This document shows positions 19,849-36,925 of a stretch of 64,000 bases of DNA, one piece after another. The position numbers and the translations under genes were made by a program. Under the pieces are notes generated by a model, which was not told the origin of the DNA, did no database searches, and saw only the letters and a list, made by a program, of their open reading frames with translations. The DNA is from Bacteroidales bacterium (lineage in GTDB: Bacteria > Bacteroidota > Bacteroidia > Bacteroidales > ML635J-15), in contig JAFZRE010000022.1 of NCBI GenBank assembly GCA_017620015.1, forward strand, positions 137,173 through 201,172, given 5' to 3'. Position 1 is the stretch's first letter. The number at the start of each line of letters is the position of its first letter.

Positions 19849-22800
19849 TTATTCAACAACAATCTGTTCAACATAAACCTTGTCGGCAGTAACTATTCTT
19901 ACGAAGTAAGTGCCAGGACGGAGGTCGTGGTTGAAGTTCATGGTGTCACCGTCCATCACGTTGATGTCGCGAGTTTCAACAACTGCGCCACGAGCGTCGA
20001 TGAGCTGGTAGGTTGCATCACCTTCGATTCTGCTGAAGTCGATGCTGAACATACCGTTGTTCGGGTTCGGGTAAACCGACATCGAAGCGGTAGTGTATTC
20101 GTCAACAGCATTACCATCGGTGAAGGTAACGTTGATAGTGTGGTTTGCAGTAACATTGTAGAATACGTATTCATTATCCACAACATCCATTATTGCCTCT
20201 TCGTTGTCAACCATTACGCTTGCGATTCTGTAACCTTCGCTAGGAGTAATCCTGAAGGTCTGGTTTGCACCTTCGGCAACAGTTACCACGCCGTTAGGAG
20301 TGATTGTACCGTTCGAACCTGCGGTTGCAATGATTGTGTAGGTAGTTGAGGATGCAGCTTCAAATGTTGCTGCAATAGTGTGGTTAGCTGTAACGTTTGT
20401 GAATGCGTAAACATTGTTTGCGAGTTCGCTGATAGCTTCTACGCCGTCAACCAATACGCTTGCAATGCGGTAACCAGCATTAGCAGTGATTGTGAATGGC
20501 TGGTCAGCACCTTCGTTTACAGTTACAGTTCCATTAGGAGTGATAGTACCACCGTTTCCAGCAGTTGCTACGATTGTGTAGGTAGTAGCAGCATTAGCAG
20601 TGTATCTAACAGTTACTTCGACATTCTGTGCCGGCATAGTACCTGCTACAGTAGCCTGGTCTGCTGTGTAACCGTCGATTACTGGAGATGTTACTGAGTA
20701 AGCAGCACCTTCTGCAAGAGTTTCGGTGTGGTCGGCAGCAGCCTGAGCGTTGGTTTCTGCATATACATAATGTATTGTCAAAGTGTAAGTCGGAACAGTG
20801 TTAGAAGTGTATCTAACGGTTACTTCAATATCCGAAGTTCCCATTGTGCCTTCAACAACAAGCTGGCTAGCTGTGTAACCATCGATTTCTGGAGATGCAA
20901 CTGAGTAAGCAGCACCTTCTGCAAGAGTTTCTACATGGTCATCAGCAGCAGGGGTATTGTCTGCAGCATATACATAATGTATTGTCAAAGTGTGAGTGTT
21001 AGCAGTGTATCTTACAGTTACTTCAACATCAGCAGTTCCCATTGTGCCTTCAACAACAGTCTGGTCTGCTGTATAACCTGCAATTACTGGAGATTGAACT
21101 GAGTAAGCAGCACCTTCTTCAAGAGCTTCTACATGGTCTTCAGCTGCAGCAGTATTGTCGGCTGCATATACATAATGTATTGTCAAGTTATGAGTTACAA
21201 TTTCGTTGTATGTAACAGTAACTTCATGGTTTTCTGCTGGCATTGTACCTTCAACAACAGCCGGATCGGCAGTGTAGCCGTCGATTACAGGCGATTCAAC
21301 CGAGAAAGTATCACCGCAAGCAACCTGTGCAGTGTAATCTTCACGAGCTTCAGTGTTGTCAGCATATACATAATGTATTGTCAAAGTGTAAGTGTCAACA
21401 TTGTAGATAACAGTTACGTCAACATCCTGTGCAGGCATTGTACCTTCAACTACAAGCGTGTTAGCTGTGTAGCATTCGATAACTGGAGATTCAACCGAGT
21501 ATGTTGCGTTGTAAGCAACTTGAGCAGTGTAATCCGGACGAGCTTCAGTATTGTCTGCATATACATAATGTATTGTCAAGTTGTAGTTGTTAACGTTGTA
21601 TGTAACAGTTACTTCAACATCCTGAGCTGGCATTGTGCCTGCAACTGTCAACTGGTCAGCAGTGTAACCTGCGATTTCCGGAGATGCTACCGAGTATGCT
21701 GTGTTGTAAACAACGGTTTCGGTATGATCAGGAGCAGCTGTTGTGTTGTCGGCATATACATAATGTATAGTCAAGTTGTAGCTGCTAACTGAGAAGTTAG
21801 CATTGATTGTATGGTCTGCAATAACATTTGTGAATGTGTAGGAGTTGTTTGCTACAGTAACAGGAACGTTATCAACAGTTACATTAGCCAATGAGTAACC
21901 TTCCTCAGCAGTAAATTCGAATGTCTGCGATCCGTTGTAAGGAACAGAAACCTGACCACTCGGTGATATAGAACCACCTGCGCTTGCAGTTGCCGTAATA
22001 ACGTGTGGCAGAGCAGATACAAACGATGCTGCGATTGTATGGCTTGTTGTTACATTTTCGAATGTGTAGTTGTAAGTTGTACGAACAACCGCATCAGTAA
22101 TTTGTTCTGTACCATCAACGAGTACGCTCGAGATGGTGTAGCCTTCATCAGCAGTAACTGTGAAAGTAGCGTTTGCACCAGCGCCAACAGAAACCTGACC
22201 AGCCGGGTCGATGCTTCCGCCGTTTCCAGCAGTAGCCGTGATGATAATTGCAGCGTCGAATGTAGCAACGATAGTGTGGTCTGCAGTTACATTTTCGAAT
22301 GTGTAAGTGTTGTTAACTACCTGCGACAACTGTTCAACACCATCAACCAAGAGGCTTGAAAGTGCGAATCCGTCCATCGGTGTCATTGTGAAAGTTTGTG
22401 ATTCACCTTCATTAACCACAACAGTGCCAGTCGGGTCAATTGATCCGAAACCTTCAGCAGAAGCTGTAATTGTGAACACATTACATTGAGGAGTAAATCT
22501 TTCTGCTACCAGCGACGATGTGTTGAAGCTACCCGGTTCGGTGCTACCAGCAACCTGAACGCCATTGTAGAGGATTTCAACATAAGCATCACCAGTCATG
22601 CCTCCATCTTCATCATTAACAACAATCCTATAGCACTGACTTGCATCAACGCAAACATACTCGTTAACCTCAACATACCACTGCCAACCAGTTGTAGTTC
22701 CAGCAACAACCTCATTGGTTATGGTATTGGTAACAGACCACGATTGACCGCTACCACTATCAGTAAGAGCATGTATTCTGATAGTTGCATCACCACTTGT

Positions 22801-25800
22801 AATAGTCATGCTTGCAGAGTTGTTATCAGCAGTTTCATCACCAGTAAGGTTAACACTAGCATTAATTGTGTAATCACCAACTGCTGAAAGATCTGCTGTC
22901 TGTACGAATGTGTATTCATAAGTCTGAGCAGGAGCGATCGAAGCAGTAACAGTTTCAGTTACAGCAGCACCACCATTTACAGAGTAAGATACTTCGAAGT
23001 TGCTTATAGCAGCACCACCATTGTTCTGAATATTGATCTTAATCTGTTCTGCATCAGTCAATGCGCAAGACGAGTAATCACCATGTGTAGGTGCAGTTAT
23101 CTCTGTTATTGCAGCATCGGTACTATTGTCAACATAAACAGATATATCATCAAGGTCAAGTCTAAACATATCGGTGCAGTCATAATGAACAAATGCAATA
23201 TAAATCATCTGTCCAACATAAGCAGACAAGTCAACATAACGTTCAAGCCAGCCTGAGGTTGGTATAGTTTCTTCGAACAAAATAGTTGTGAAACTTGCAG
23301 TATCAATACTTGTTGATACGCAAACCTTATAATGTTCAGATGGCCATTCTGTCTGATGACCTCCAACGAAGTACGACAGTTTAATTGTACCGCTCAGTGC
23401 TGTGAGATCGAGTGCAGGCGAAATAAGCCAGTTGTTTGGAGTCAATGGAGAAGAAGCCCATGATGCAGATGTCATCATGTAAGAACCACCATGAGTAGAA
23501 AGTAGATTGGATTGGCTTGCTTGTGGCAAATTAATTTCATACCATTCATAACCATCAGCATCTCCATCAACCAAAGTCCAGCAGTCAATTCCGTTTTCGA
23601 AACCTTCGTTCCATGGGAATTCAGTTATTGCACCGCAAGGAGTTGTGAAACTGAATACTGTAGAATATGCGCTTTCTACATCTACGTCGCAAACAGCCTT
23701 AACCCTTACATTGTAAGTTGATGAAGGTGTTGTCGTAATAGTGTAGGTAGCAGCATCCACGTTTTCAACAACCGTCCAGTCGCCTGTTGTTCCAAGCCTG
23801 TATTCAAAAGTCCAGTTGCTTGCTGTGTATCCGTTCCATGTGATTGTAGTCAAATTATTGATACTTGTCGATGTTGCAAAACCATCTGGTGCAGGACAAG
23901 CAGCAACGGTTGTGAATGTTGCATGTGCCCACTGGCTGTTGTCATCAACATCGCAGTTTGCACGAACATATACATGATAGGTTGTTTCTGCATCAAGACC
24001 AGTTGCTGAGTACGAAGCATCACTTACAGGAGCTGCAGTAACAGCATCGAAGTCGGTTACTTCTGTTGCCGATACAACAACTTCCCAAGCTTCTGCAGTA
24101 CCACGCTCTGTCCAAGTAATTACAGCCGAGTTGCTTGTAATATTTGCAGGTGCAGCAGCAAGGTCACCAACTGTCGGGCAGGTAAGAGCATGAATGTCGA
24201 TGTTGTCGATTGCTGCAGGAGTATCAGAACCACTACCGCCATCGTTTGCCCACATAAATACCAAGTTGTAGTTACCTGCAGGGATGTCAATAGTCTGGTT
24301 CTTGGTCTGCCATGATGTTACCAGATTCAACTTGCTACCGCCATCCAGCGAAATCCAACCTGTTGGAGTTGTTGATGTGTAGTTATATGGATAAGTCGTA
24401 CCATCAGGAAGCTGACCTGCGGTCAATGTTGCAGTAGTTGGAGCAAGCCATGCACGGAGATAATCGTAATTGCTTTCTCCGTTTGCCTTCCAGTCGTATG
24501 AAACAACATATTCCGAAGTTGCAGGAATATTTATAGGTCTATAGGCATATACAAATGTAATTGAACTTGTATTGTACGTATTGCCTGTACCATTGTTGCT
24601 TGAAATGTACATACCGTTTGTACCGCTATTGTGCGCTGCAGTACCGAAATACCACTTGTTGGTTTGATCGCCGTTTTCGCGTATCCAGTTAGCATTTTCT
24701 GATGCTTCTTCGAAACCACATACATACGGCAAGGTTGCTGGAGTGCGTTCAGTTGTGAACTCAACACTAGCCCAGTTCTGACCCAATGTACCATCGCAGT
24801 TCGACTGGATTGCAACAGTGTAAGTAGTATTTTGTTCAAGACCTGTAAGAGCGTAAGAAATAACATCTCCATTAACAGTTACACCTTCGGTGGTAAGAGC
24901 AACAGGAGTGCCATCGTTTAACTTCAAGTTCCACGAAGTTTCGGTACCGCGTGTCCAGCTTATTACAGCCGAATTGTCGGTAAGGCTACCAGCCGAAACA
25001 TTGGTAACTGCAAGACAGTCGTTGATGTCCTGGCAAACAGGAGCCGAAAGTTCCGATTCGCTACCTTCGCGGCATAAAGTCTTAATGGTGTAGCAGTAGT
25101 GACCTGCAGCAAGACCTTCATCGGTATAAGATGTCTGGGTTGCTGGAACAGTAGCAAGTTCTGAACCATCCCTATAGATAACTACGCTAGAATTTCCACC
25201 AGGAACATTAGTATCAAGTGAAATGTCATCAATCCAAGCACAGTCGCTACCACTTGATGCAGAACCATCCTTTGTATATTTCCAAGCCAAAGTGTGAGTT
25301 CCGGCTGCCAATGTAGTCGAGTATTGTGTCCATGACACTTCGCCAGATACATCTGATATGACATCAGTACCATCAATAGCAAATGAGAACTCATCCCAAC
25401 CGCTTTCCGATGAAACCTTGTACCAGAATGAGAAAGGTGATGCATCTACGAGATCCAGTGTCATAGAAATCTGTGATGTTGAAGAATGTGTACCACTTGC
25501 ACTCTTGAGACACTTGTTTCCGCCATGTGCTCCAGACGAAACAATCGACCAAGCAAGGCCAGATGCCGAGTTTGTGTAACTAAAATCGCCACCATTAATA
25601 TCCGTTCTTTCGAAACCATCATTAATAGTCATTTCAACAACTGGCAAGTTATCCTGAACATCCCAAGTAATCATTACATCGTTGTCACCAATTAGAGATG
25701 TTGCAAGGTTTGTAGGAGCAACGCAGTTTTCCCAAGTTGAGAACGAACCGCTCATCCATTCGCTGTAGTTACCACCGCAGTCTGCACGTACATACCAATA

Positions 25801-28800
25801 GTAGGTAGTTTCTCCAACAACAGTAACGCTTGCCGAAGTTGTAGTAACGGTTGTATAGTCACTTGATGTAAGAGCAGCAAGGTCGCTAACCGACAACTGG
25901 GTTGTCGAGCAGTAGAAATTCCATGCTGATGTACCTTCTGCAGGAGTCCACGAGCAGTTGACATTTGTCAACGAAGTCTGTTCTGCAACCAAAGCCGACG
26001 GAGCACCGCAAGCTTCAACAGAAACATTTGCCAAGTAGAGCTGTTCTGCACCGTTTTCAGCAGTTACCTTGTAGGTAACGGTAGTATCGGCCGAAGTCAT
26101 ATACCAGAAGAATCTTGGAGTTGCAGGAAGGTCGTAGTATGTGTTGTTTGCATGAATCTGAACAGTTGCATGTTCGTCGTTAGGTACGATAGTATAATTA
26201 ATAGCAGTAGCATCATAACCTGTACGAAGAACAACCGAAATAGTGTGGGCATCGTTATCGACATTGCAGATAGCATCGCCCTGTGCAGTAGTAGCAGAGT
26301 ACGACAAGAGAGTGTTGTCCGTCGAAACTTCGCGAACTGTAACATTGTCGATTCCGTAGTAAACTGTTGAAGAAGCAGAAGCCAATACCGAGAAATTCAG
26401 AGCAAGCTTTGCACTTTCAGGAACAGTATTAGGTACTACATAGGAGAATGATATTGCTGAAGTATTAAATACGACATCAGTCAGATTTACGAAATTGTCA
26501 CCGTTCATATAGCCAAGTTTCACAGCTGCATTGGTCGAACTGCTTGTCTTAGCATCAAACGATACGTTTCTGTTTGCATAACCACCTTCAACAGGAGGCA
26601 ACATGATAATATTATTATTGCCGTATGCTTCTGTTGAAGACGTTGAAGCAATCGCACACAGATAATTTACATCGTCACCGCTCATAGGAGAGTACGAAGT
26701 AGAATTGCTAACATGTGGTGCGTATGCCGTGTTAGTACCATTATATATATAAGACCAGCAATCCGACATTACACCTGCTGTAGAATATGCTGTTGCAGTG
26801 TAGTCGGTGAATGTTTCAGTAAAAGGAACAGCCATATCACCGCATTCGGTTCTGAACTGGAATGCAACCCAATCGGACTGGTCTTCATCTGAACAATTTG
26901 CACGGACATATACATAATAAGGTGTATTCGGAGTAAGACCAGTTGCCTGATAGCTTGCAGCAGTTACATTTTCTGGAGTTGCCGAAGCAAGCTGGACATC
27001 GCTTAGTGCAGTTGTAGAGAATACAACACCCCATGCAGTTGCCGTACCGCGTTCAGTCCAAGTAATATCAGCAGAACTGGTTGTAACATTGTTAGCTGCG
27101 ATATCTGCAACTACAGGACAAGTAATCTGTATAACGCTGATATTGTCGATAGATGCAGGAGGCTGTGATCCATCGCTACCATCGTTAGCCCACATGAATA
27201 CCAGATTGTAGGTACCTGCCGAAACACTAGCTGTCAAACTCTGGCTTTGCCATGATGAAGATTGATTCAAACCATGACTTTCGTCCAGAGAAATCCATCC
27301 GCTTGGATTATTACCAGAATTATAATTATATACAGATGTTCCACCGGCTGGTGCCTGTCCCGGAGTAAATGCAAATGATGCCGGGGCTAACCATACACGA
27401 ATAAAGTCATAATATTGACTTTCACCTTGTGCTTTCCAGTCGTAAGAAATAACATAGTCACCAGTTCCCATACTTATAGTCCTATAAGCATAAGCAAATG
27501 CAAGCGAACCTGTGGTATATGCATTGGTTGTTCCATTGTCGTTAGAAATGTACAAACCATTACCGCTATTGCTTGATACAGTACCTATATACCACTTGTT
27601 GGTCTGCTCGCCATTGATAAGAACCCAGTTGTTATTTTCCGTAGCATCTTCAAAAGCATATACATAAGGTATTGTTGCAGGTGAAACAATTGTTCTGAAC
27701 GAATAGCTTATCCAAGTTTCGATTCCGCAAGCCGACTGAACATACATATAATATTGTGTATTTTCAGCAAGACCGGTCAATGCTATGGTCGTATCGTTTA
27801 CAACGCCGTCATATACATCTGCGGTTGCAGTCATGTCTGTCATAGTGGTTGTCGAAACCTTAACATTGTATGAAGTTTCGAGGTAACGATGCCACCAAGT
27901 AATAGTTGCAGAAGTCGGAGCAATCTCAGGTGCCGTGAATGTGCTTGCCAATGGGTTTACACAAGCATACGGGTCGTTGATTATTGTAACCGTCCAATCC
28001 TGAGTGCTTTCGTCCTCAGCTGTAACCGTATATGTAACAGGTGTTGCAAAATTTATTGACGAATCGCTTACAGGATAAATTGTTGCCTGTGGCGAAACTG
28101 TGATAGTCGGAGTTATGTTATTTGCGAAGTCGTAGTTCCATGCTGCGTATGCAGTAACTGTATGGTTTTCTGCATCAATATCAGCTTCTCTTGACTGTCC
28201 CGAGAAGGTAAAAGTAAGGATGTCCTTAGCCGATGAAGCGGTAGCAACCTTGCTTACATTTACTGTCCATTCCTTAGTTGTTGTTCCGTCTTCAGCAGTT
28301 ACTGTATAAGTAACAGGTCCAGTGAAATCCTGAGCAACACCGCTTGCTGGAGCTATTGTTGCATAGTCGGAAATTGCAATTGTTGGAACAAGGCCGTTTA
28401 AGCTTTCTGTCTGATAAGAAACCAAGCTGGTAACTGTTGCATCTGCGCTATTGATAACAGCAACCTCAGCATCTTCTGCGAATGAGAAGGCTGTGATTTC
28501 TGCAGCTGTAGAAGCAGTACGAACAAGAACATCATCCATATAAGTTGATAGACCGTAATTATTTCTTCCTTCGAATATCACATAATAAACACCATCAGAA
28601 GAAATATCAAATGGAATGTTGTAGGTGTACCAACCTGTTCCAGATTCAGCACCAATTATTTCAGAATTAACGCCTGATGCCACAGTATAGTTACGGGAAA
28701 TAAAACCTAAATCAACTGCGTCGTTACCAGCAGAAACCAGATCAGACGTTTTGCTAAGGTACAAGTTAATACCTTCAACTGTATGATTTGTTCCTGTTGC

Positions 28801-31596
28801 ACTTCTATAAACCCTTACAGAAACAATATAACGTCCTGTAGCCATTGACAATGGAGCAGTAACAAGATTATGTCTTGCACCTGCCCTGGAATCTCTCAAC
28901 TGAGCCATCGGCGGATTAGAGCCGGTTCCTTGAGTTGAAGTATAGCAAGTCCATGCTCCATTGGGATAATCAGTTCCGCTTGATCCTGTACCGACTGCCG
29001 TTCTTTCCTGAGACCAGCATTGCGGAGGGAAAGTAGAAGAAGTCAAATCTGCAAAATCTTCACTAAACGGATTAGCCGCATCTACAACTATAGCATTACA
29101 GCTAGTTGTAAATGTAGCATCAGTTGACCAATCGCTATAATCGCCACCACAAGCAGAGCGAACCTTTATTGTATATTCGGTGTTTGCATTAAGGCCAGTA
29201 AGTTCAATCGGTTTTGCATCGATATCTGTGATATCACCATCACCGAGCTGGTACTGCCATGCAGTCGTAGGCAATACATCCGTCCACGAAACAGAAGCAG
29301 TTGTTGCTGTAATATTAGAAACAACAATATTATCAGGAGCTACGCATGATGGTATTTCACTAACTTCAATGTCGTCAATATGGACATAAGAAGATGAACT
29401 TGCATGATACGAACGGAAAGCTATTGCATCTGCATCAGCGGGAACTTCACTCATATATACAGTAAACTGCTGATATGTTGCAGTAAGACCAGGAATAGTT
29501 TGTATAGCTGTAAATTCACCATTCTTTACATAACCAACCTGGAACGACTGCGGATTCGTGCTGTAGTACCTTGCCCAGAACGATATCTGCAAAGTATTTA
29601 TGTCGTCCATTGGTGGCATTGCAATAATATTTTCAGGAGCATTATAATAATAATAGGTGTACATCCTAAGGGACTTGGATGAACTATTATGTGCGTAGGT
29701 TGTACTGTTATTTACACACGGATATGTATAATTACCAGATGTATATGTAGCAACCTGAGTCCAACAATTTGGAACTGCGTAATTATCAAAGCTCTCGAAA
29801 TCCACTGTATATGGTATGGCTTGCGCATTACAATAAGTAGTGAATGTCGCACGCGTCCATCTGCTTTCTTCGGTAGCACCACAAACAGCCTTTACATATA
29901 CATCGTATGCTGTATTTGCGCTCAAACCACTCAATGAATATGAAGGCGTTGTTTCAACAGAAACTTCTGTACCAGCAGTTTCAACATTGAATCCAGCAGC
30001 ACCATACTTCAATACCCATGCAGTTTCTTCATTACCTGCTGTCCAGCCTATGACAGCAGAAGATGCTGTGAGATTAGTTGCGACAACATCAGAAACCCTA
30101 AAGCATACATTACCATTAGGAGCAATTCCCAATTGAATATTGTTGTGGTATTTGTTATAAGTCTTGGAGCCAGAGAAAGAGCTTACATTATTAATGTCTG
30201 GTGTATAGGAATCACTATAGTACATAATCGAAGTGTAATTATCGCCTGTACCTGTATATCTAAACTTATACGAAGAACCAGGATAACCACTTGTCTGGTC
30301 GAACATACAAATCAATAGATTGTCGGTGCCATTGTATTCGAATGGAGTCGAAAGCTGTAAAGTGATCCAACCAGCACCAGAAGCGCCAAAAGTACCTTCA
30401 TAAACCAAAGTTGCATCAGCAAGAGAAACCATATCGGTATTACTTGCAAATGACGATTTTGTCGTGTGCTTCATATACAACCTTATTCCATCCATAGAGA
30501 ATGACGATGAATAATCGTGATAAAATGCGACAGAGGAAATTGTTCCTGCCATCTCAATATCGTCTGGTGTATAAATCTGCTGAGAAAGCGAGTAATTGTA
30601 GTACGTATTTACTGGGACATAATAACCAGTTCCAGTACCATCACCAATAGTTATCACATGGACAACAGGTTCTGGAGTCGTGAAAGTCATATCGTCAGTC
30701 CAGATGCTGTTGTCGTCGCCACCGCAATTAGCACGCAGATACACATGATAGGTTGTATTACCATTAAGTCCAGTAAGTGTATAAGGACTAGTTGCATTAG
30801 TTATCACATGAGCATCAGAAGTGTTCACTAAAGTATTCAATGCTGTAGTTGACAATTGGGATGTATAATATACTAAGGTATATGACTCTTCGTTTGTACC
30901 CTGCGGATCCCACGAAATAACAGCCGAATGAGGGTCGTTAGCTACTGCTGTAACATTTATAGGCTTCAAGCAGGTCATAGGCGAACCTGTGAAAACAACG
31001 TTATCAATTGCAGTAACTGCGTTATCAACAGTAGCACCGCTTACGGTCAACTTAAACCATACGGATGACATACCATTCAACGCAGAAACCGACGAAAAAT
31101 CAACCAGCTCGGTTGCATAAGTGGTAGTTGCACCAGTAATGGATGTCATTTCTGTAAAACTAACACCGTTGGTACTGTACGACCAAGTTTCGGTTTCGTA
31201 ACCACCAGTAGCGCCAATCCTATGGTCGTAGTTCAACCTTATGCTTCCATAAGGAGCGGTTGAAATCTTGAAGATAATGCTTGCCTCGGTAAAATTACCA
31301 TTGGAGTTAGTCAGTCGCAGACCTTTGGAAGTGGTAGCGTTAGTCTCATCGCCACACAATACCGTATTGGTATTGTTGTAGTCGGTAGCCCTAAACGTCC
31401 ACCCATCGGTAGCCACAGTTAATTCACAATCCGTACTTTGAATCAAGTCGGACACACAGCTCGGAGCTACAGGGTCTGAAGTCTCCTGCATAAGCGGGAA
31501 CTGCCACACCGCAATATTCTCCTGAGCCACAAGCCTACCGCCTAAGCCGGTAAGCAACCACAAAAAGGCCAATGTAGCCAATAGAATTTTCTTCAT
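19849..31596 (-). CDS. Giant secreted multidomain adhesin with T9SS sorting domain
   Basis: About 3,915 residues. The frame opens at 31671, but ATG 31596 starts the signal peptide MKKILLATLAFLWLLTGLGG and is preceded by a -7 element at 31722. From N to C: many fibronectin-III-like units (pattern NVTATSAVISWT ... YxVYVRAxC) alternate with cleaved-adhesin/MAM-like beta-sandwiches (typically WxxNDWxx and DNI). Two DUF5018/cadherin-like units contain TYTVTAEDGTT and WTVNVS. A duplicated block of about 250 residues is marked by NKWYIGT/NKWYFGT and YNLVFMWANDG. Near the C-terminus are three InlB-B-like repeats, six MucBP-like repeats and two more InlB-B-like repeats. The last ~75 residues are a type IX sorting domain (MSVYPNPNNGMFSIDF ... 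YVEQIVVE). No protease motif was found. It probably acts as a surface adhesin or matrix-binding protein. Confidence 0.9.
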   Translation of the reverse strand: MKKILLATLAFLWLLTGLGGRLVAQENIAVWQFPLMQETSDPVAPSCVSDLIQSTDCELTVATDGWTFRATDYNNTNTVLCGDETNATTSKGLRLTNSNGNFTEASIIFKISTAPYGSIRLNYDHRIGATGGYETETWSYSTNGVSFTEMTSITGATTTYATELVDFSSVSALNGMSSVWFKLTVSGATVDNAVTAIDNVVFTGSPMTCLKPINVTAVANDPHSAVISWDPQGTNEESYTLVYYTSQLSTTALNTLVNTSDAHVITNATSPYTLTGLNGNTTYHVYLRANCGGDDNSIWTDDMTFTTPEPVVHVITIGDGTGTGYYVPVNTYYNYSLSQQIYTPDDIEMAGTISSVAFYHDYSSSFSMDGIRLYMKHTTKSSFASNTDMVSLADATLVYEGTFGASGAGWITLQLSTPFEYNGTDNLLICMFDQTSGYPGSSYKFRYTGTGDNYTSIMYYSDSYTPDINNVSSFSGSKTYNKYHNNIQLGIAPNGNVCFRVSDVVATNLTASSAVIGWTAGNEETAWVLKYGAAGFNVETAGTEVSVETTPSYSLSGLSANTAYDVYVKAVCGATEESRWTRATFTTYCNAQAIPYTVDFESFDNYAVPNCWTQVATYTSGNYTYPCVNNSTTYAHNSSSKSLRMYTYYYYNAPENIIAMPPMDDINTLQISFWARYYSTNPQSFQVGYVKNGEFTAIQTIPGLTATYQQFTVYMSEVPADADAIAFRSYHASSSSYVHIDDIEVSEIPSCVAPDNIVVSNITATTASVSWTDVLPTTAWQYQLGDGDITDIDAKPIELTGLNANTEYTIKVRSACGGDYSDWSTDATFTTSCNAIVVDAANPFSEDFADLTSSTFPPQCWSQERTAVGTGSSGTDYPNGAWTCYTSTQGTGSNPPMAQLRDSRAGARHNLVTAPLSMATGRYIVSVRVYRSATGTNHTVEGINLYLSKTSDLVSAGNDAVDLGFISRNYTVASGVNSEIIGAESGTGWYTYNIPFDISSDGVYYVIFEGRNNYGLSTYMDDVLVRTASTAAEITAFSFAEDAEVAVINSADATVTSLVSYQTESLNGLVPTIAISDYATIAPASGVAQDFTGPVTYTVTAEDGTTTKEWTVNVSKVATASSAKDILTFTFSGQSREADIDAENHTVTAYAAWNYDFANNITPTITVSPQATIYPVSDSSINFATPVTYTVTAEDESTQDWTVTIINDPYACVNPLASTFTAPEIAPTSATITWWHRYLETSYNVKVSTTTMTDMTATADVYDGVVNDTTIALTGLAENTQYYMYVQSACGIETWISYSFRTIVSPATIPYVYAFEDATENNNWVLINGEQTNKWYIGTVSSNSGNGLYISNDNGTTNAYTTGSLAFAYAYRTISMGTGDYVISYDWKAQGESQYYDFIRVWLAPASFAFTPGQAPAGGTSVYNYNSGNNPSGWISLDESHGLNQSSSWQSQSLTASVSAGTYNLVFMWANDGSDGSQPPASIDNISVIQITCPVVADIAANNVTTSSADITWTERGTATAWGVVFSTTALSDVQLASATPENVTAASYQATGLTPNTPYYVYVRANCSDEDQSDWVAFQFRTECGDMAVPFTETFTDYTATAYSTAGVMSDCWSYIYNGTNTAYAPHVSNSTSYSPMSGDDVNYLCAIASTSSTEAYGNNNIIMLPPVEGGYANRNVSFDAKTSSSTNAAVKLGYMNGDNFVNLTDVVFNTSAISFSYVVPNTVPESAKLALNFSVLASASSTVYYGIDNVTVREVSTDNTLLSYSATTAQGDAICNVDNDAHTISVVLRTGYDATAINYTIVPNDEHATVQIHANNTYYDLPATPRFFWYMTSADTTVTYKVTAENGAEQLYLANVSVEACGAPSALVAEQTSLTNVNCSWTPAEGTSAWNFYCSTTQLSVSDLAALTSSDYTTVTTTSASVTVVGETTYYWYVRADCGGNYSEWMSGSFSTWENCVAPTNLATSLIGDNDVMITWDVQDNLPVVEMTINDGFERTDINGGDFSYTNSASGLAWSIVSSGAHGGNKCLKSASGTHSSTSQISMTLDLVDASPFSFWYKVSSESGWDEFSFAIDGTDVISDVSGEVSWTQYSTTLAAGTHTLAWKYTKDGSASSGSDCAWIDDISLDTNVPGGNSSVVIYRDGSELATVPATQTSYTDEGLAAGHYCYTIKTLCREGSESELSAPVCQDINDCLAVTNVSAGSLTDNSAVISWTRGTETSWNLKLNDGTPVALTTEGVTVNGDVISYALTGLEQNTTYTVAIQSNCDGTLGQNWASVEFTTERTPATLPYVCGFEEASENANWIRENGDQTNKWYFGTAAHNSGTNGMYISSNNGTGNTYNTSSITFVYAYRPINIPATSEYVVSYDWKANGESNYDYLRAWLAPTTATLTAGQLPDGTTYPYNYTSTTPTGWISLDGGSKLNLVTSWQTKNQTIDIPAGNYNLVFMWANDGGSGSDTPAAIDNIDIHALTCPTVGDLAAAPANITSNSAVITWTERGTAEAWEVVVSATEVTDFDAVTAAPVSDASYSATGLDAETTYHVYVRANCDVDDNSQWAHATFTTVAACPAPDGFATSTSINNLTTITWNGYTASNWTFEYRLGTTGDWTVVENVDAATYTITTTPSSTYNVRVKAVCDVDVESAYSTVFSFTTPCGAITEFPWNEGFENGIDCWTLVDGDADGYEWYEINLPQASQSNLLSTHGGSYMMTSASWASSPLTPNNWLISPALDLTALSGTIKLSYFVGGHQTEWPSEHYKVCVSTSIDTASFTTILFEETIPTSGWLERYVDLSAYVGQMIYIAFVHYDCTDMFRLDLDDISVYVDNSTDAAITEITAPTHGDYSSCALTDAEQIKINIQNNGGAAISNFEVSYSVNGGAAVTETVTASIAPAQTYEYTFVQTADLSAVGDYTINASVNLTGDETADNNSASMTITSGDATIRIHALTDSGSGQSWSVTNTITNEVVAGTTTGWQWYVEVNEYVCVDASQCYRIVVNDEDGGMTGDAYVEILYNGVQVAGSTEPGSFNTSSLVAERFTPQCNVFTITASAEGFGSIDPTGTVVVNEGESQTFTMTPMDGFALSSLLVDGVEQLSQVVNNTYTFENVTADHTIVATFDAAIIITATAGNGGSIDPAGQVSVGAGANATFTVTADEGYTISSVLVDGTEQITDAVVRTTYNYTFENVTTSHTIAASFVSALPHVITATASAGGSISPSGQVSVPYNGSQTFEFTAEEGYSLANVTVDNVPVTVANNSYTFTNVIADHTINANFSVSSYNLTIHYVYADNTTAAPDHTETVVYNTAYSVASPEIAGYTADQLTVAGTMPAQDVEVTVTYNVNNYNLTIHYVYADNTEARPDYTAQVAYNATYSVESPVIECYTANTLVVEGTMPAQDVDVTVIYNVDTYTLTIHYVYADNTEAREDYTAQVACGDTFSVESPVIDGYTADPAVVEGTMPAENHEVTVTYNEIVTHNLTIHYVYAADNTAAAEDHVEALEEGAAYSVQSPVIAGYTADQTVVEGTMGTADVEVTVRYTANTHTLTIHYVYAADNTPAADDHVETLAEGAAYSVASPEIDGYTASQLVVEGTMGTSDIEVTVRYTSNTVPTYTLTIHYVYAETNAQAAADHTETLAEGAAYSVTSPVIDGYTADQATVAGTMPAQNVEVTVRYTANAATTYTIVATAGNGGTITPNGTVTVNEGADQPFTITANAGYRIASVLVDGVEAISELANNVYAFTNVTANHTIAATFEAASSTTYTIIATAGSNGTITPNGVVTVAEGANQTFRITPSEGYRIASVMVDNEEAIMDVVDNEYVFYNVTANHTINVTFTDGNAVDEYTTASMSVYPNPNNGMFSIDFSRIEGDATYQLIDARGAVVETRDINVMDGDTMNFNHDLRPGTYFVRIVTADKVYVEQIVVE
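20600..21795 (-). repeat. Six MucBP-like tandem repeats within the giant adhesin
   Basis: Each repeat encodes about 65-69 residues opening with LTIHYVYA and closing with VEGTMPAxxVEVTVxY. The nucleotide anchor CATATACATAATGTAT recurs at about 20760, 20967, 21165, 21363, 21558 and 21753, with spacings of 207, 198, 198, 195 and 195 bp. The block is flanked by InlB-B-like repeats on both sides. Confidence 0.85.
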
Positions 31597-31721
31597 ATAC
31601 AAAAAATTTAAAAATACATTTTCATCAAAATAAGGTTCGGATTTCCAAATACTTAGCGGATTGCTCAGCACTTCTCAAACCCGTACCTGCAGTATATACA
31701 CAATTACACAAATTCAAGTGC

Positions 31722-33654: not shown

Positions 33655-33775
33655 GAGATCGAAGGCTGACAGGCTAACGGGCTAACGGGCTTGCAGGCTG
33701 ACAGACCGACTGGTCTTCTGTCTGACTGCTCAACTGCTCTTCCGTTCGACAGGTCTTCTGTTAACCTTTTAGCCA
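33655..33775. repeat. GGCTnACAGGCTAACGGG-type repeats
   Basis: Short iterated words (GGCTGACAGGCTAACGGGCT, GACTGGTCTTCTGTC) in the spacer between pfkA and the TerB-like gene. Their complement appears at 14090-14150. No gene is seen. Confidence 0.5.
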
Positions 33776-33817: not shown

Positions 33818-33825
33818 TATATTTG
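33818..33825 (+). promoter_or_regulatory. -7 element of the TerB/peptide/ATP-grasp operon
   Basis: TATATTTG, a good TAnnTTTG match, 37 nt before the ATG of the TerB-like gene. It also argues against the longer frame opening at 33815. Confidence 0.6.
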
Positions 33826-33862
33826 CATTTGCAATTTTGCGCAGAATTTAAAAACATATTTT

Positions 33863-34321
33863 ATGGATAACACCAAATTTACGAAACAATTTGTTGCCTT
33901 GACAATGGCTACATTGAGAGCCGATGGCATCATCGAGCAGGTTGAACTCGACACTATCAAGGAACAGGCTGCCGACTTGGAGCTTGACATGGTAGAAGTT
34001 GAAAAGTTTATCGCTGAGGAAAACAACCTCCAGCAGAATGTAAACATCGAAAACTACATCAAGGAAATCGGTGCTACCGTTGAAAACCTTGGTGACAAGC
34101 ACTGCATCATGGACGGCTGTATCCTTGTTGCTTTGTCGGACAAGATTCTCAAGGAGTCGGAAATTAAAGTGCTTAAATTCGTATGCGAAGCCCTTGGTTT
34201 CTCGCTCGAACGCATGGTTCTCGACATTGCTATCATTGCACAGAACGACCGCAGCATAAAGATTGAAGGAAGCGACAGCAACTTCGACGAGGTTATTGAA
34301 GATGAGGATTACAAAAATTAA
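33863..34321 (+). CDS. TerB-like helical protein
   Basis: A 152-residue acidic, all-helical protein of the TerB/tellurite-resistance-like type: FVALTMATLRADGIIEQVELDTI corresponds to the family's first metal-site segment (DG..E...I) and ALSDKILKESEIKVLKFVCEALG to the second. The C-terminus is an acidic tail (DEVIEDEDYKN). The ATG at 33863 was preferred over the upstream frame because the promoter lies between. It precedes, by 12 nt, a short peptide gene and then an ATP-grasp ligase. TerB-fold proteins often bind partner proteins or membranes. Here it could act as an accessory or carrier of the peptide-modifying ligase, which is inference from position only. Confidence 0.75.
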   Translation: MDNTKFTKQFVALTMATLRADGIIEQVELDTIKEQAADLELDMVEVEKFIAEENNLQQNVNIENYIKEIGATVENLGDKHCIMDGCILVALSDKILKESEIKVLKFVCEALGFSLERMVLDIAIIAQNDRSIKIEGSDSNFDEVIEDEDYKN

Positions 34322-34333
34322 AAAGTTATTGGT

Positions 34334-34582
34334 ATGAAAGCATATAATCAGAATAGTCAGATAATGCCATTGTTGATGAATTTCGTGGTTCCTACCGACA
34401 TTATGGAGTATGTTCCAACCGAATTCTCATACGACGATGCAAATCAGGTAACATACGAAATGACAATCACCAGCACTCGCAGCCTTCGTCACCCGAGCAC
34501 ACACAAGGGTGGTGAATATGTAGGCGTTGATGCTAAGAACGAAATCGACGACACCAAGAACAATCGTCACATGTGGTTCTAA
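34334..34582 (+). CDS. 82-residue peptide, candidate substrate of the adjacent ATP-grasp ligase
   Basis: No signal peptide or membrane segment. The N-terminal half is leader-like (MKAYNQNSQIMPLLMNFVVP ... DIMEYVPTEF). The C-terminal half is rich in Ser/Thr/Lys and Asp/Glu (ITSTRSLRHPSTHKGGEYVG then DAKNEIDDTKNN) and ends RHMWF. That composition offers hydroxyl or amine donors and carboxyl acceptors for ester or amide macrocycles as in graspetides. It lies 12 nt after the TerB-like gene and 9 nt before the ATP-grasp gene. There is no repeated core and no Gly-Gly cleavage site other than HKGGEY. It may be a RiPP precursor or simply a small conserved protein. Confidence 0.65.
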   Translation: MKAYNQNSQIMPLLMNFVVPTDIMEYVPTEFSYDDANQVTYEMTITSTRSLRHPSTHKGGEYVGVDAKNEIDDTKNNRHMWF

Positions 34583-34591
34583 TCGCGTGCG

Positions 34592-35581
34592 ATGATTCTT
34601 ATTTACACAAATAAGGAGGACACTCATCCTACCAATGTCATCAAGTACCTGAACGAGTGGAATGTCCCGGTATTCAGGCTCAACACCGAGTGTATTCTTA
34701 CCGACTACGAGTTTGAATGGTGGTGCGATGACAGGAGGGTCGATTTCCTCATAAGAAACATAAAGAACGACCTGCAACTTTTCGGACATGAGATTACGGC
34801 GGTATGGGATCGTCGCGCCCTGGTTCCGTCGGAGTTGCCGGTGGTTAACGAACATGACGAGATAAACCGCCATAACCTCGACGAGGCTCGCGGTTTTCTC
34901 GCTTTTTTGCGCTACTACACAAAAGACATTTTTTCGATTGGTAGCATTGTCGAAGACCGTCCTGCCGACTCAAAGATGCTGCAGTTGCAGGTTGCGCGTT
35001 CGCTCGGAATGCCTACACCAGATACGAGCTTTGCAAATACAAAGGAAGCCGTACTCAAGTTTGCAAGAAACTACGAGTACATTTCGCTTAAGTCGATTGT
35101 CGATAGCGGACTTTTCCTCGGTGGCGACAAGGAATATGTGTTCTTTTCGCAGCGAATCAAAAGCAGCGACCTCGAAAGTCAGCCCGATGAGGCTTTTTCG
35201 CAGACGGTAAGTTTTGTCCAGAACTATATTGACAAGAAGTACGAACTGCGCATTACTGCCGTATGCGACGATGTGATTGCCTGCAAGATAGATTCGCAGT
35301 TGCAGTCGGAAACTACAGGAAAAATCGACTGGCGACAGGGCTATGAGCACGACCTGAAGCACGAAATTGTGGAAATTCCAGACTTTGTTTCGGATTTCTG
35401 CCGCAAGTTTTTGAAGCGGATGAAACTCAATTTCGGATGCTTCGACTTTATTGTCACCCCCGACGACAAATATGTTTTCCTCGAGTGCAATCCCAACGGG
35501 CAGTGGCTGTGGATTGAGATTGTGACGGAATATGACATTTCAAAGGTTATTGCCAAGAATCTGGCAAAGATGGAGCAATAA
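34592..35581 (+). CDS. ATP-grasp ligase of the graspetide (GwsG/MvdD-like) type
   Basis: A 329-residue ligase. The N-terminus MILIYTNKEDTHPTNVIKYL and the region FRLNTE resemble the pre-ATP-grasp domain of RiPP ester/amide ligases. The ATP-grasp core has YISLKSIVDSG (first Lys), VSFVQNYIDKKYELRITAV (R/K and E ligands), KIDWRQGYEHD, and the Mg-binding FLECNPNGQWLWIEI. The E-x-N-P-x-G-Q-W string is typical of graspetide synthetases as opposed to D-Ala ligases or RimK. It is third in a tight operon after the TerB-like and 82-residue peptide genes. No SPASM partner, protease or transporter is adjacent, unlike grasp-with-spasm loci. The predicted reaction is side-chain acyl phosphate formation and lactone or lactam closure. 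Confidence 0.82.
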   Translation: MILIYTNKEDTHPTNVIKYLNEWNVPVFRLNTECILTDYEFEWWCDDRRVDFLIRNIKNDLQLFGHEITAVWDRRALVPSELPVVNEHDEINRHNLDEARGFLAFLRYYTKDIFSIGSIVEDRPADSKMLQLQVARSLGMPTPDTSFANTKEAVLKFARNYEYISLKSIVDSGLFLGGDKEYVFFSQRIKSSDLESQPDEAFSQTVSFVQNYIDKKYELRITAVCDDVIACKIDSQLQSETTGKIDWRQGYEHDLKHEIVEIPDFVSDFCRKFLKRMKLNFGCFDFIVTPDDKYVFLECNPNGQWLWIEIVTEYDISKVIAKNLAKMEQ

Positions 35582-35608: not shown

Positions 35609-36925
35609 CTACAAGAACATCACATAGTATATAGGCATATATGTGATTCCATTTTCTTGTTCAACAGTGGCATTATTGCAAAATACTATGGCACTCTTTA
35701 CTGAATAATCCTTGTTTTTAAGAAAACTACTCAGCGCACTATGCACATAATAATCTTTTCCCGACTTGATTTCGAGAGGCAATACCGAAAGACTGTCGTA
35801 GTCATCAATAAGGAAATCAACTTCTCCTTTTTGTTTGTTGTCGTAATAAAACAAATTAAAGCCATGTGCTTTCAGTTCCTGCGCCACAACAGATTCATAT
35901 ACTGTCCCAAGATTTATGCTACGCTCATCATTTAGGATTGCATTTATATTGTTTTTGTATAGAATTCCCGTAAGAATGCCAACATCGTTGAGATATAATT
36001 TCAACAAATTCTTGCTCATTGTCTCAACAAGCGGAAATACAGGTGTTGAGATTGCTTTTACATCAAGCGCAATTCCCGATGCAATAAGATAATCAAACTC
36101 ATCTTGATAATCTTTGAAACGCTTACTTTCCATACCTTCTATATCACGCACGACAATACGCTTTTTCTTGTTTTCGAGCACAGAAGGAATCATGTCGTAG
36201 ATACGACGAATCTTCAACCTGTTTTCCAAATCATATCTTGATGCATCCACACCATAATAATTATGAATCTGCTTCTGAATCTTGCGCACTGTAGCTATAT
36301 TGGTATTGTCAACAAACGACTGCACTGCTTCTGGCAATCCTCCAACCAGCAAATATTTCTGAAACAAATCTAGCATTCGCTTGTGGAAATTGGGCTGTAA
36401 ACCTTTTCTTGCAAGAAACATTTCTCTACAATGCGCAATGAAATCCTTTCCAACACCATTCGCCCACAGAAATTCCTCGAAATCCAACGGATACAAATGC
36501 TTTACATCAATGCTTCCCATCGGAATAGACAATGTATTGAAAAGCGTGATGCCCAATTCTGAACCACTTGCGATATATGTAAATCGATTGTCCTGATTAA
36601 GAAATTTTAGCAGTGTTAGCAGATGCGGATATGCCTGAATTTCATCAAGAAAAATCAAGGTATCTTCTTTCTGTCCTAACTTACTACCATACAGAGAACT
36701 CAATTGCAGATAAAAATCAGAAACGGAACGAACATCTTCAAAATAGTGGTCATTCAAACGGTCGTCAAGCATGTTTATTTCAATGAAATTCTTAAACATA
36801 GACTTTCCTATTTTGCGAATTATGAATGTCTTGCCAGTTTGCCTTGCCCCATCAACAATCAGAATCTTCTGCTCGTTTGATACAAAAAAATCCTTTATGT
36901 AATTCTCTATTTTTCGTTCTAACAT
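35609..36925 (-). CDS. AAA-type ATPase with DUF4143 domain
   Basis: A 438-residue member of the same family as the genes at 920 and 43105. Walker A is VDGARQTGKTFIIRKIG and Walker B is LIFLDEIQAYP. A sensor/arginine region precedes the winged-helix-like middle. The C-terminal nuclease-like core has QKGEVDFLIDDYD then LPLEIKSGKDYY, so the D...ExK residues of a PD-(D/E)XK fold are intact here. The minus-strand sequence before the ATG has TATCTTTG (about 36950-36957) as the likely -7 box. A 33-bp-period array lies just upstream of that promoter (36981-37098). Function of the family unknown. Convergent with the ATP-grasp operon. Confidence 0.85.
   Translation of the reverse strand: MLERKIENYIKDFFVSNEQKILIVDGARQTGKTFIIRKIGKSMFKNFIEINMLDDRLNDHYFEDVRSVSDFYLQLSSLYGSKLGQKEDTLIFLDEIQAYPHLLTLLKFLNQDNRFTYIASGSELGITLFNTLSIPMGSIDVKHLYPLDFEEFLWANGVGKDFIAHCREMFLARKGLQPNFHKRMLDLFQKYLLVGGLPEAVQSFVDNTNIATVRKIQKQIHNYYGVDASRYDLENRLKIRRIYDMIPSVLENKKKRIVVRDIEGMESKRFKDYQDEFDYLIASGIALDVKAISTPVFPLVETMSKNLLKLYLNDVGILTGILYKNNINAILNDERSINLGTVYESVVAQELKAHGFNLFYYDNKQKGEVDFLIDDYDSLSVLPLEIKSGKDYYVHSALSSFLKNKDYSVKSAIVFCNNATVEQENGITYMPIYYVMFL

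Follow-up and report, generated by a model that had tools for sequence, protein, structure and literature searches.

A probable graspetide cassette of the Bacteroidales with a recurrent TerB partner

Introduction

Does a short operon that joins a TerB-like gene to an 82-residue peptide gene and an ATP-grasp ligase gene encode a graspetide pathway, and what would a TerB protein be doing in it? The question arises from a 64,000-nucleotide stretch of the genome of a rumen member of the Bacteroidales (contig JAFZRE010000022.1, assembly GCA_017620015.1), hereafter the window, in which the initial annotation had described such an operon and had proposed that it might represent an unreported graspetide subclass with a TerB accessory and a product acting inside the cell. 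Our study finds that this graspetide-type subfamily is real and new, with a new core and TerB as a recurrent partner. From the sequence comparisons described below, we consider it reasonably probable that the locus encodes, as a self-contained cassette, the biosynthesis of a graspetide (RiPP) belonging to a new subfamily in the Bacteroidales, for which the ring chemistry is proposed.

Regarding its novelty, our search of the literature on graspetides found no earlier report of this subclass and no paper naming both 'graspetide' and 'TerB'. Nor does TerB appear in the body text of PMC8939145 or PMC13097080. Both the family of peptides and its association with TerB look new.

Results

Organization and recurrence of the cassette

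The three open reading frames were confirmed where the initial annotation had placed them, separated by intergenic gaps of 12 and 9 nt (Table 1).

Table 1. Features of the cassette (positions in the window).
Feature	Position	Strand	Description
Bacteroidota-type -7 promoter element TATATTTGC	33818..33826	+	Assigned by conservation; 5' block extends to the TerB start codon
TerB gene	33863..34321	+	152 aa; Pfam PF05099 match
Precursor peptide gene	34334..34582	+	82 aa; homologous short ORF 5' of every subfamily ligase
Leader recognition motif PLLMNF (residues 12-17)	34367..34384	+	Fits Phhx(1,2)h
Donor motif T48-R-S50-L-R-x3-T56	34475..34501	+	Proposed ring hydroxyls; cross-lineage conservation
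Acceptor motif D66-AK-N69-E70-I-D72-D73-T-K75	34529..34558	+	Proposed ring carboxylates; cross-lineage conservation
ATP-grasp ligase gene	34592..35581	+	329 aa; MvdC/MvdD/SAV_5884-type, graspetide-type
Ligase DWR motif, corresponding to DFR in graspetide synthetases	35327..35335	+	D and R invariant in the subfamily
Ligase Mg/ATP site ECNPNGQW	35483..35506	+	Invariant in the subfamily

The TerB, peptide and ligase genes occur with their order kept in seven genomes of the genus, counted at species level; the named ones include assemblies from the rumen and from other ruminant foregut sources. Since the gene order is identical in these seven genomes and the three genes are found together again in two further lineages (G317 and G199), the arrangement is not a product of chance. 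In all seven cassettes of the genus, the conserved block runs from near the -7 box to the stop codon of the ligase. The usual neighbour of the cassette is an oad-type decarboxylase operon; in L036 the cassette lies on the opposite side of that operon, and within the genus the three genes shift jointly between flanks. This combination of a conserved block and differing flanks indicates that the cassette is a discrete unit made up of a promoter and three genes. A phage- or plasmid-borne system was considered and rejected, as the ligases of phages and plasmids are only distant relatives, below about 32% identity.

The promoter-like element noticed in the initial annotation is borne out by conservation: TATATTTGC, which fits TAnnTTTG, the -7 consensus of Bacteroidota, does not vary among the seven orthologous cassettes while the sequence further 5' diverges, and it is also unchanged in the relocated copy with its different flank (L036). 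A generic scan for sigma-70 promoters and terminators gave nothing above chance. An RNA element was considered and rejected, since an Rfam search returned no match. Directly 5' of the promoter, positions 33660-33770 hold imperfect short repeats (gctgacaggctaacgggct...), and similar repeats precede the cassette in L031, L034 and L035.

Two other genes of the window deserve mention. A 438-aa open reading frame on the reverse strand (35609-36925), judged by eye to be probably a DUF4143-type ATPase, separates the cassette from the oad genes in this genome and is not found at that place in the six related cassettes. On the same strand, positions 19849-31671 encode a protein of 3940 aa that, judged by eye, carries numerous fibronectin-like and InlB-like repeats and has a T9SS-type sorting end at its C-terminus.

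The ligase

As expected of a graspetide system, the ligase belongs to the macrocyclase group of ATP-grasp enzymes and possesses both the ATP site and the DFR/DWR motif, whose importance for graspetide synthetases is stated in PMC13097080. The Mg-site motif ECNPNGQWLWIE that the initial annotation had pointed out is indeed present, accompanied by ELRIT and DWR. The best profile matches were TIGR04187 (SAV_5884/tgmB; E 1.5e-50, 172.1 bits, below the cut-off of 350), TIGR04184 (E 4.9e-49, 167.2 bits, below the curated cut-off of 475), TIGR04185 (E 1.9e-41, 142.2 bits, below the curated cut-off of 425) and TIGR04192 (E 1.5e-38, 132.9 bits, below the cut-off of 230). Because the ligase falls below these curated cut-offs, membership in the microviridin, grasp-with-spasm and tgmB groups was rejected. 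The closest solved structures are those of microviridin-type ligases, with 5ig9 as the best match (E 8.7e-33).

In our phylogenetic tree, the subfamily ligases form their own well-supported clade (support 100/99). Relatives with 46-55% identity were identified in other Bacteroidales families (G117, G317 and G199), and additional members are G442, G443 and a fragment at a contig end, L037; a class-wide ligase search at E 1e-80 gave no match beyond the order. The next nearest ligases are accompanied by peptides with repeated cores, TKTxxxREQDD or TETFTxTxEPSDSD (L042:118-441; L043, reverse strand, 214-561), and these multivalent graspetides occur without TerB.

The precursor peptide

Searches of Pfam and NCBIfam with the 82-aa peptide returned no match. 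In each of the seven lineages, a homologous short open reading frame stands directly 5' of the ligase, and the claim that the peptide is a graspetide-type precursor has held up, as both the leader motif and the donor/acceptor core are kept across these lineages with the ligase always alongside. The leader, PLL or PLM, has P12 and L13 invariant in all lineages and follows the Phhx(1,2)h signature of graspetides described by Makarova et al. (PMC8939145); I23, Y33 and Q38 are also invariant. The core consensus is T-x-[S/C]-L-[RK]-x3-T, a variable linker, and D-x(2,3)-N-[E/T]-I-D-D-x-K, in which T48, L51, D66, N69, I71, D72, D73 and K75 are invariant in the seven lineages. S50, T56 and E70 are each found in six of the seven, the exceptions being G199 for S50 (Cys) and E70 (Thr) and L037 for T56. 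Lineages differ in how far T48 lies from the first D of IDD, with values between 24 and 33 residues. The joint change of S50 to Cys and E70 to Thr in G199 is as expected if these two residues form a bonded pair, but it is a single event. The locus thus has what characterizes a graspetide precursor gene: a short gene beside the ligase with a leader motif and a conserved core of Ser/Thr/Lys and Asp/Glu residues.

Within the genus, the dN/dS of the peptide is 0.024 overall, 0.037 in its N-terminal half and 0.008 in its C-terminal half, compared with values of 0.050 (ligase) and 0.070 (TerB), so that the C-terminal half of the peptide is under the strongest purifying selection in the cassette. It is important to consider that the whole of this half is strongly conserved in the genus, which a folded or binding peptide would also fit. 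According to the initial annotation, the idea would be refuted by peptide homologs found apart from the ligase and conserved over the full length as a folded protein. Among approximately 420 genomes searched with both queries, no peptide homolog occurs without a ligase: in the family, 7 of 31 genomes have both peptide and ligase and none has only one of the two, and in 393 genomes of the order they share genomes, save for one chance peptide match with five internal stops. Conservation of the peptide between lineages is not that of a folded domain, and its AlphaFold model has no fold (pLDDT 54, pTM 0.13), which is weak evidence given the shallow alignment. An ordinary folded small protein was rejected on these grounds, conservation being limited to the motifs and no fold being predicted. 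Based on its constant association with the ligase, the C-terminal dN/dS and the shared motifs, we accept the peptide as the putative precursor of a new graspetide subfamily.

The TerB partner

The TerB protein of the window matches Pfam PF05099 with E 1.2e-8 and 35.7 bits, exceeding the gathering score of 24.4. TerB adjoins the precursor in three lineages at a spacing of 6-13 nt, and the ligases of these lineages are 46-53% identical to that of the window. The G317 protein (122 aa; E 3.2e-5, 24.6 bits) is encoded 13 nt 5' of its precursor, and the G199 protein (150 aa; E 4.8e-4, 20.8 bits, slightly below the 24.4 cut-off) 6 nt 5'. These two are only about 21% identical to the window TerB, and the ligase tree leaves the grouping of TerB-bearing members unsettled; the TerB proteins of the lineages may have been recruited independently. 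An alignment of five TerB proteins including those of G317 and G199 retains D21-G22-x5-E28 and D93-x6-E100, paired acidic positions that are equally spaced in the two halves of the protein. The TerB model is all-helical and of low confidence (pLDDT 57); a Foldseek search with it gave nothing at E < 0.001, PG1108 (2h5n) being the top match by TM-score, and a profile search of the PDB listed the TerB structure 2jxu at E 0.24.

The view of TerB as the accessory of the subclass stands in part: it is present in three lineages, but it does not define the subfamily, because four members (L037, G117, G442 and G443) have no TerB beside the cassette and TerB is consequently not obligate. In its place we identified a DnaJ-type zinc-finger protein in G117, a MORN protein in G442, a 245-aa protein in L037 and nothing adjacent in G443. 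The CXXCXGXG zinc-finger protein of G117 (L046:5967-7199) overlaps the precursor start. In the genomes checked, TerB is rare, with 0-3 matches per genome and mostly one or two genes, one of which is usually DjlA-like; the second TerB of the window genome is of this kind, with a TerB and a J domain. With so few TerB genes per genome, the adjacency of TerB to the cassette is not background. We take TerB to be a recurrent and exchangeable partner, and by analogy with MirC of rosaritide the best model is that it would act as a partner or chaperone of the ligase or precursor, with the recurrent gene order as the support for such a partnership.

Export or retention of the product

The suggestion that the product acts inside the cell is upheld in part by the lack of a C39 peptidase and of a GG before the core, but is weakened by other possible export routes and by membrane proteins near the cassette in some lineages. 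None of the seven cassette genomes of the genus yielded a C39 peptidase in a search whose positive controls gave matches in 8 of 14 genomes, a Bacteroides among them; in contrast, a grasp-with-spasm-like locus in the same genus (L028) does carry one. GG occurs once in the window peptide, at residues 59-60; this position falls between the donors and the acceptors, and cleavage there would part them. The locus accordingly has neither of the hallmarks of exported RiPPs, a C39 peptidase transporter and a GG ahead of the core, and the usual processing and export route is missing. As export genes were not found, the product is probably intracellular; a retained product is plausible from gene content.

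In G117, G317 and G443, a membrane protein is encoded immediately or 1.5 kb 3' of the ligase and could be a transporter in those lineages. In G317, G442 and G443, three genomes of a single bacterial family, a group of related ~175-aa membrane proteins is encoded no more than about 5 kb from the ligase; its members have no Pfam match and are 24-34% identical (L047:8470-9003, L055:2669-3193, L056:10311-10853). PDDEXK_4 nucleases, the PADLOC candidate PDC-S26, are found directly or almost directly 3' of the ligase in G117 and G443 (L046:8921-10084 and L056:9041-10309), perhaps in a defence-island context. About 5 kb 5' of the G442 cassette, a dynamin-like GTPase resembling LeoA/LeoBC (L055:573-2621) is preceded by an EF-Tu domain-2 protein.

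Discussion

In the mechanism that we propose, the ligase would bind the PLLM leader of the precursor and phosphorylate carboxylates of the C-terminal D..NEIDD block (E70, D72, D73 and perhaps D66), and the activated carboxylates would be joined to T48, S50 and T56, with K75 as a further candidate. Up to three nested or interlocked rings might thereby close a loop of 24-33 residues in the manner of stapled stem-loop ends. TerB, as a metal-binding or chaperone-like protein, could stabilise the ligase or present the long precursor, as MirC suggests by analogy, and the product would bypass the usual C39 route to act or be stored in the cell. Taken in its full detail, with TerB as a dedicated metal-binding ligase partner and a triply cross-linked, unsecreted cytoplasmic peptide in a housekeeping or stress role, this reading of the new subfamily is tentative, and we regard it as possible rather than probable.

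Several alternatives must be weighed against it. The cassette may be a genuine graspetide system in which TerB stands outside biosynthesis, as the target, as a sensor of stress or metals, or as an immunity factor making use of the modified peptide or responding to it, comparable to the TerB that senses ligands in Ter stress systems. For Ter conflict systems, PMC7824862 describes TerB as possibly sensing a signal, other proteins replace it in four lineages, and the near-frozen peptide core fits a fixed cellular target; however, the close TerB-precursor spacing in three lineages suggests co-synthesis in a fixed order, the cassette has no other Ter genes, and the DnaJ-type replacement in G117 better suits a chaperone-like role, so that we hold a sensor or target function possible but doubtful. 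That TerB stands there by coincidence, as the variable 5' gene of an otherwise ordinary new graspetide group, would agree with the four of seven sampled lineages that have no TerB, yet so rare a gene recurs next to the precursor in lineages whose ligases are this divergent, and the three genes relocate together in the genus; coincidence is therefore improbable.

Other alternatives concern the product. Most of the graspetides studied so far are regarded as secreted, and the related membrane proteins near three of the ligases would likewise suit a graspetide that leaves the cell through an unlinked or unusual transporter and acts extracellularly, with protease inhibition and antimicrobial activity as examples. 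Against this stand the result of the C39 search, set beside the peptidase of the other-type locus L028, the position of the GG pair, and a core that is almost invariant, unlike that of diversifying weapons; we judge export rather unlikely. The peptide could also be a small folded or binding protein to which the ATP-grasp enzyme adds, for instance, C-terminal amino acids in a RimK-like manner without forming macrocycles, since the ligase also matches the RimK-type profile TIGR00768 (E 7.9e-9), conservation within the genus spans the entire peptide, and NEIDDxK lies close to its C-terminus. The macrocyclase families are far closer to the ligase (1e-38 to 1e-50) and DWR/DFR is present, though, while between lineages only two short core motifs with a linker of variable length are kept, the predicted structure shows no fold (from a shallow alignment) and the peptide never occurs without its ligase, which leaves this option little credit.

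If confirmed, the preferred reading of a graspetide cassette would add a new core topology in which two fixed motifs are stapled around a variable loop, would give a stand-alone TerB protein a biochemical job beside a peptide ligase, and would provide a case of an extremely conserved graspetide with no known export route. The dependence of graspetide ligases on a partner protein was first reported in 2026 (PMC13097080), and a second, unrelated partner fold would therefore show its generality. The cassette is small and self-contained and can be rebuilt in E. coli, which makes it suited to probing whether graspetides have intracellular roles.

Comparison with known systems

Rosaritide (Mir, group 21), whose synthetase is inactive without the chaperone-like partner MirC (PMC13097080), resembles our cassette in combining a precursor, a TIGR04187-type ligase and a separate partner protein, and in its pattern of a cluster of three hydroxyl donors that a linker joins to a cluster of three acids. 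It differs in that MirC is SurA/PPIase-like rather than a TerB, in its PCAT exporter and actinobacterial host, and in an unrelated core sequence. The stem-loop graspetides fuscimiditide and OEP6-1 (PMC12291112) share the nested cross-links at the ends of a variable-length loop, which are predicted here, whereas our cassette has no aspartimide-forming methyltransferase and has a longer loop and other motifs. The microviridin ligases MdnC and MdnB (PDB 5ig9, 5ig8) share the ligase fold, the catalytic motifs and a P-h-h leader motif, but the ligase is distant (117 bits) and PFFARFL, the TxKYPSDxE core, the acetyltransferase and the transporter are missing from the cassette. Grasp-with-spasm systems (TIGR04192/TIGR04193) likewise pair an ATP-grasp enzyme with a small 5' peptide in Bacteroidales, even in the same genus, although the cassette has no SPASM protein, C39 transporter or MKKL...GG leader and its ligase is below the TIGR04192 cut-off. 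With Ter stress-response systems and DjlA it shares the TerB domain but not the TerC, TerD, TerZ, PRTase and HAD genes; a Ter operon was rejected because the three-gene unit contains no other Ter genes and its flanks differ among genomes.
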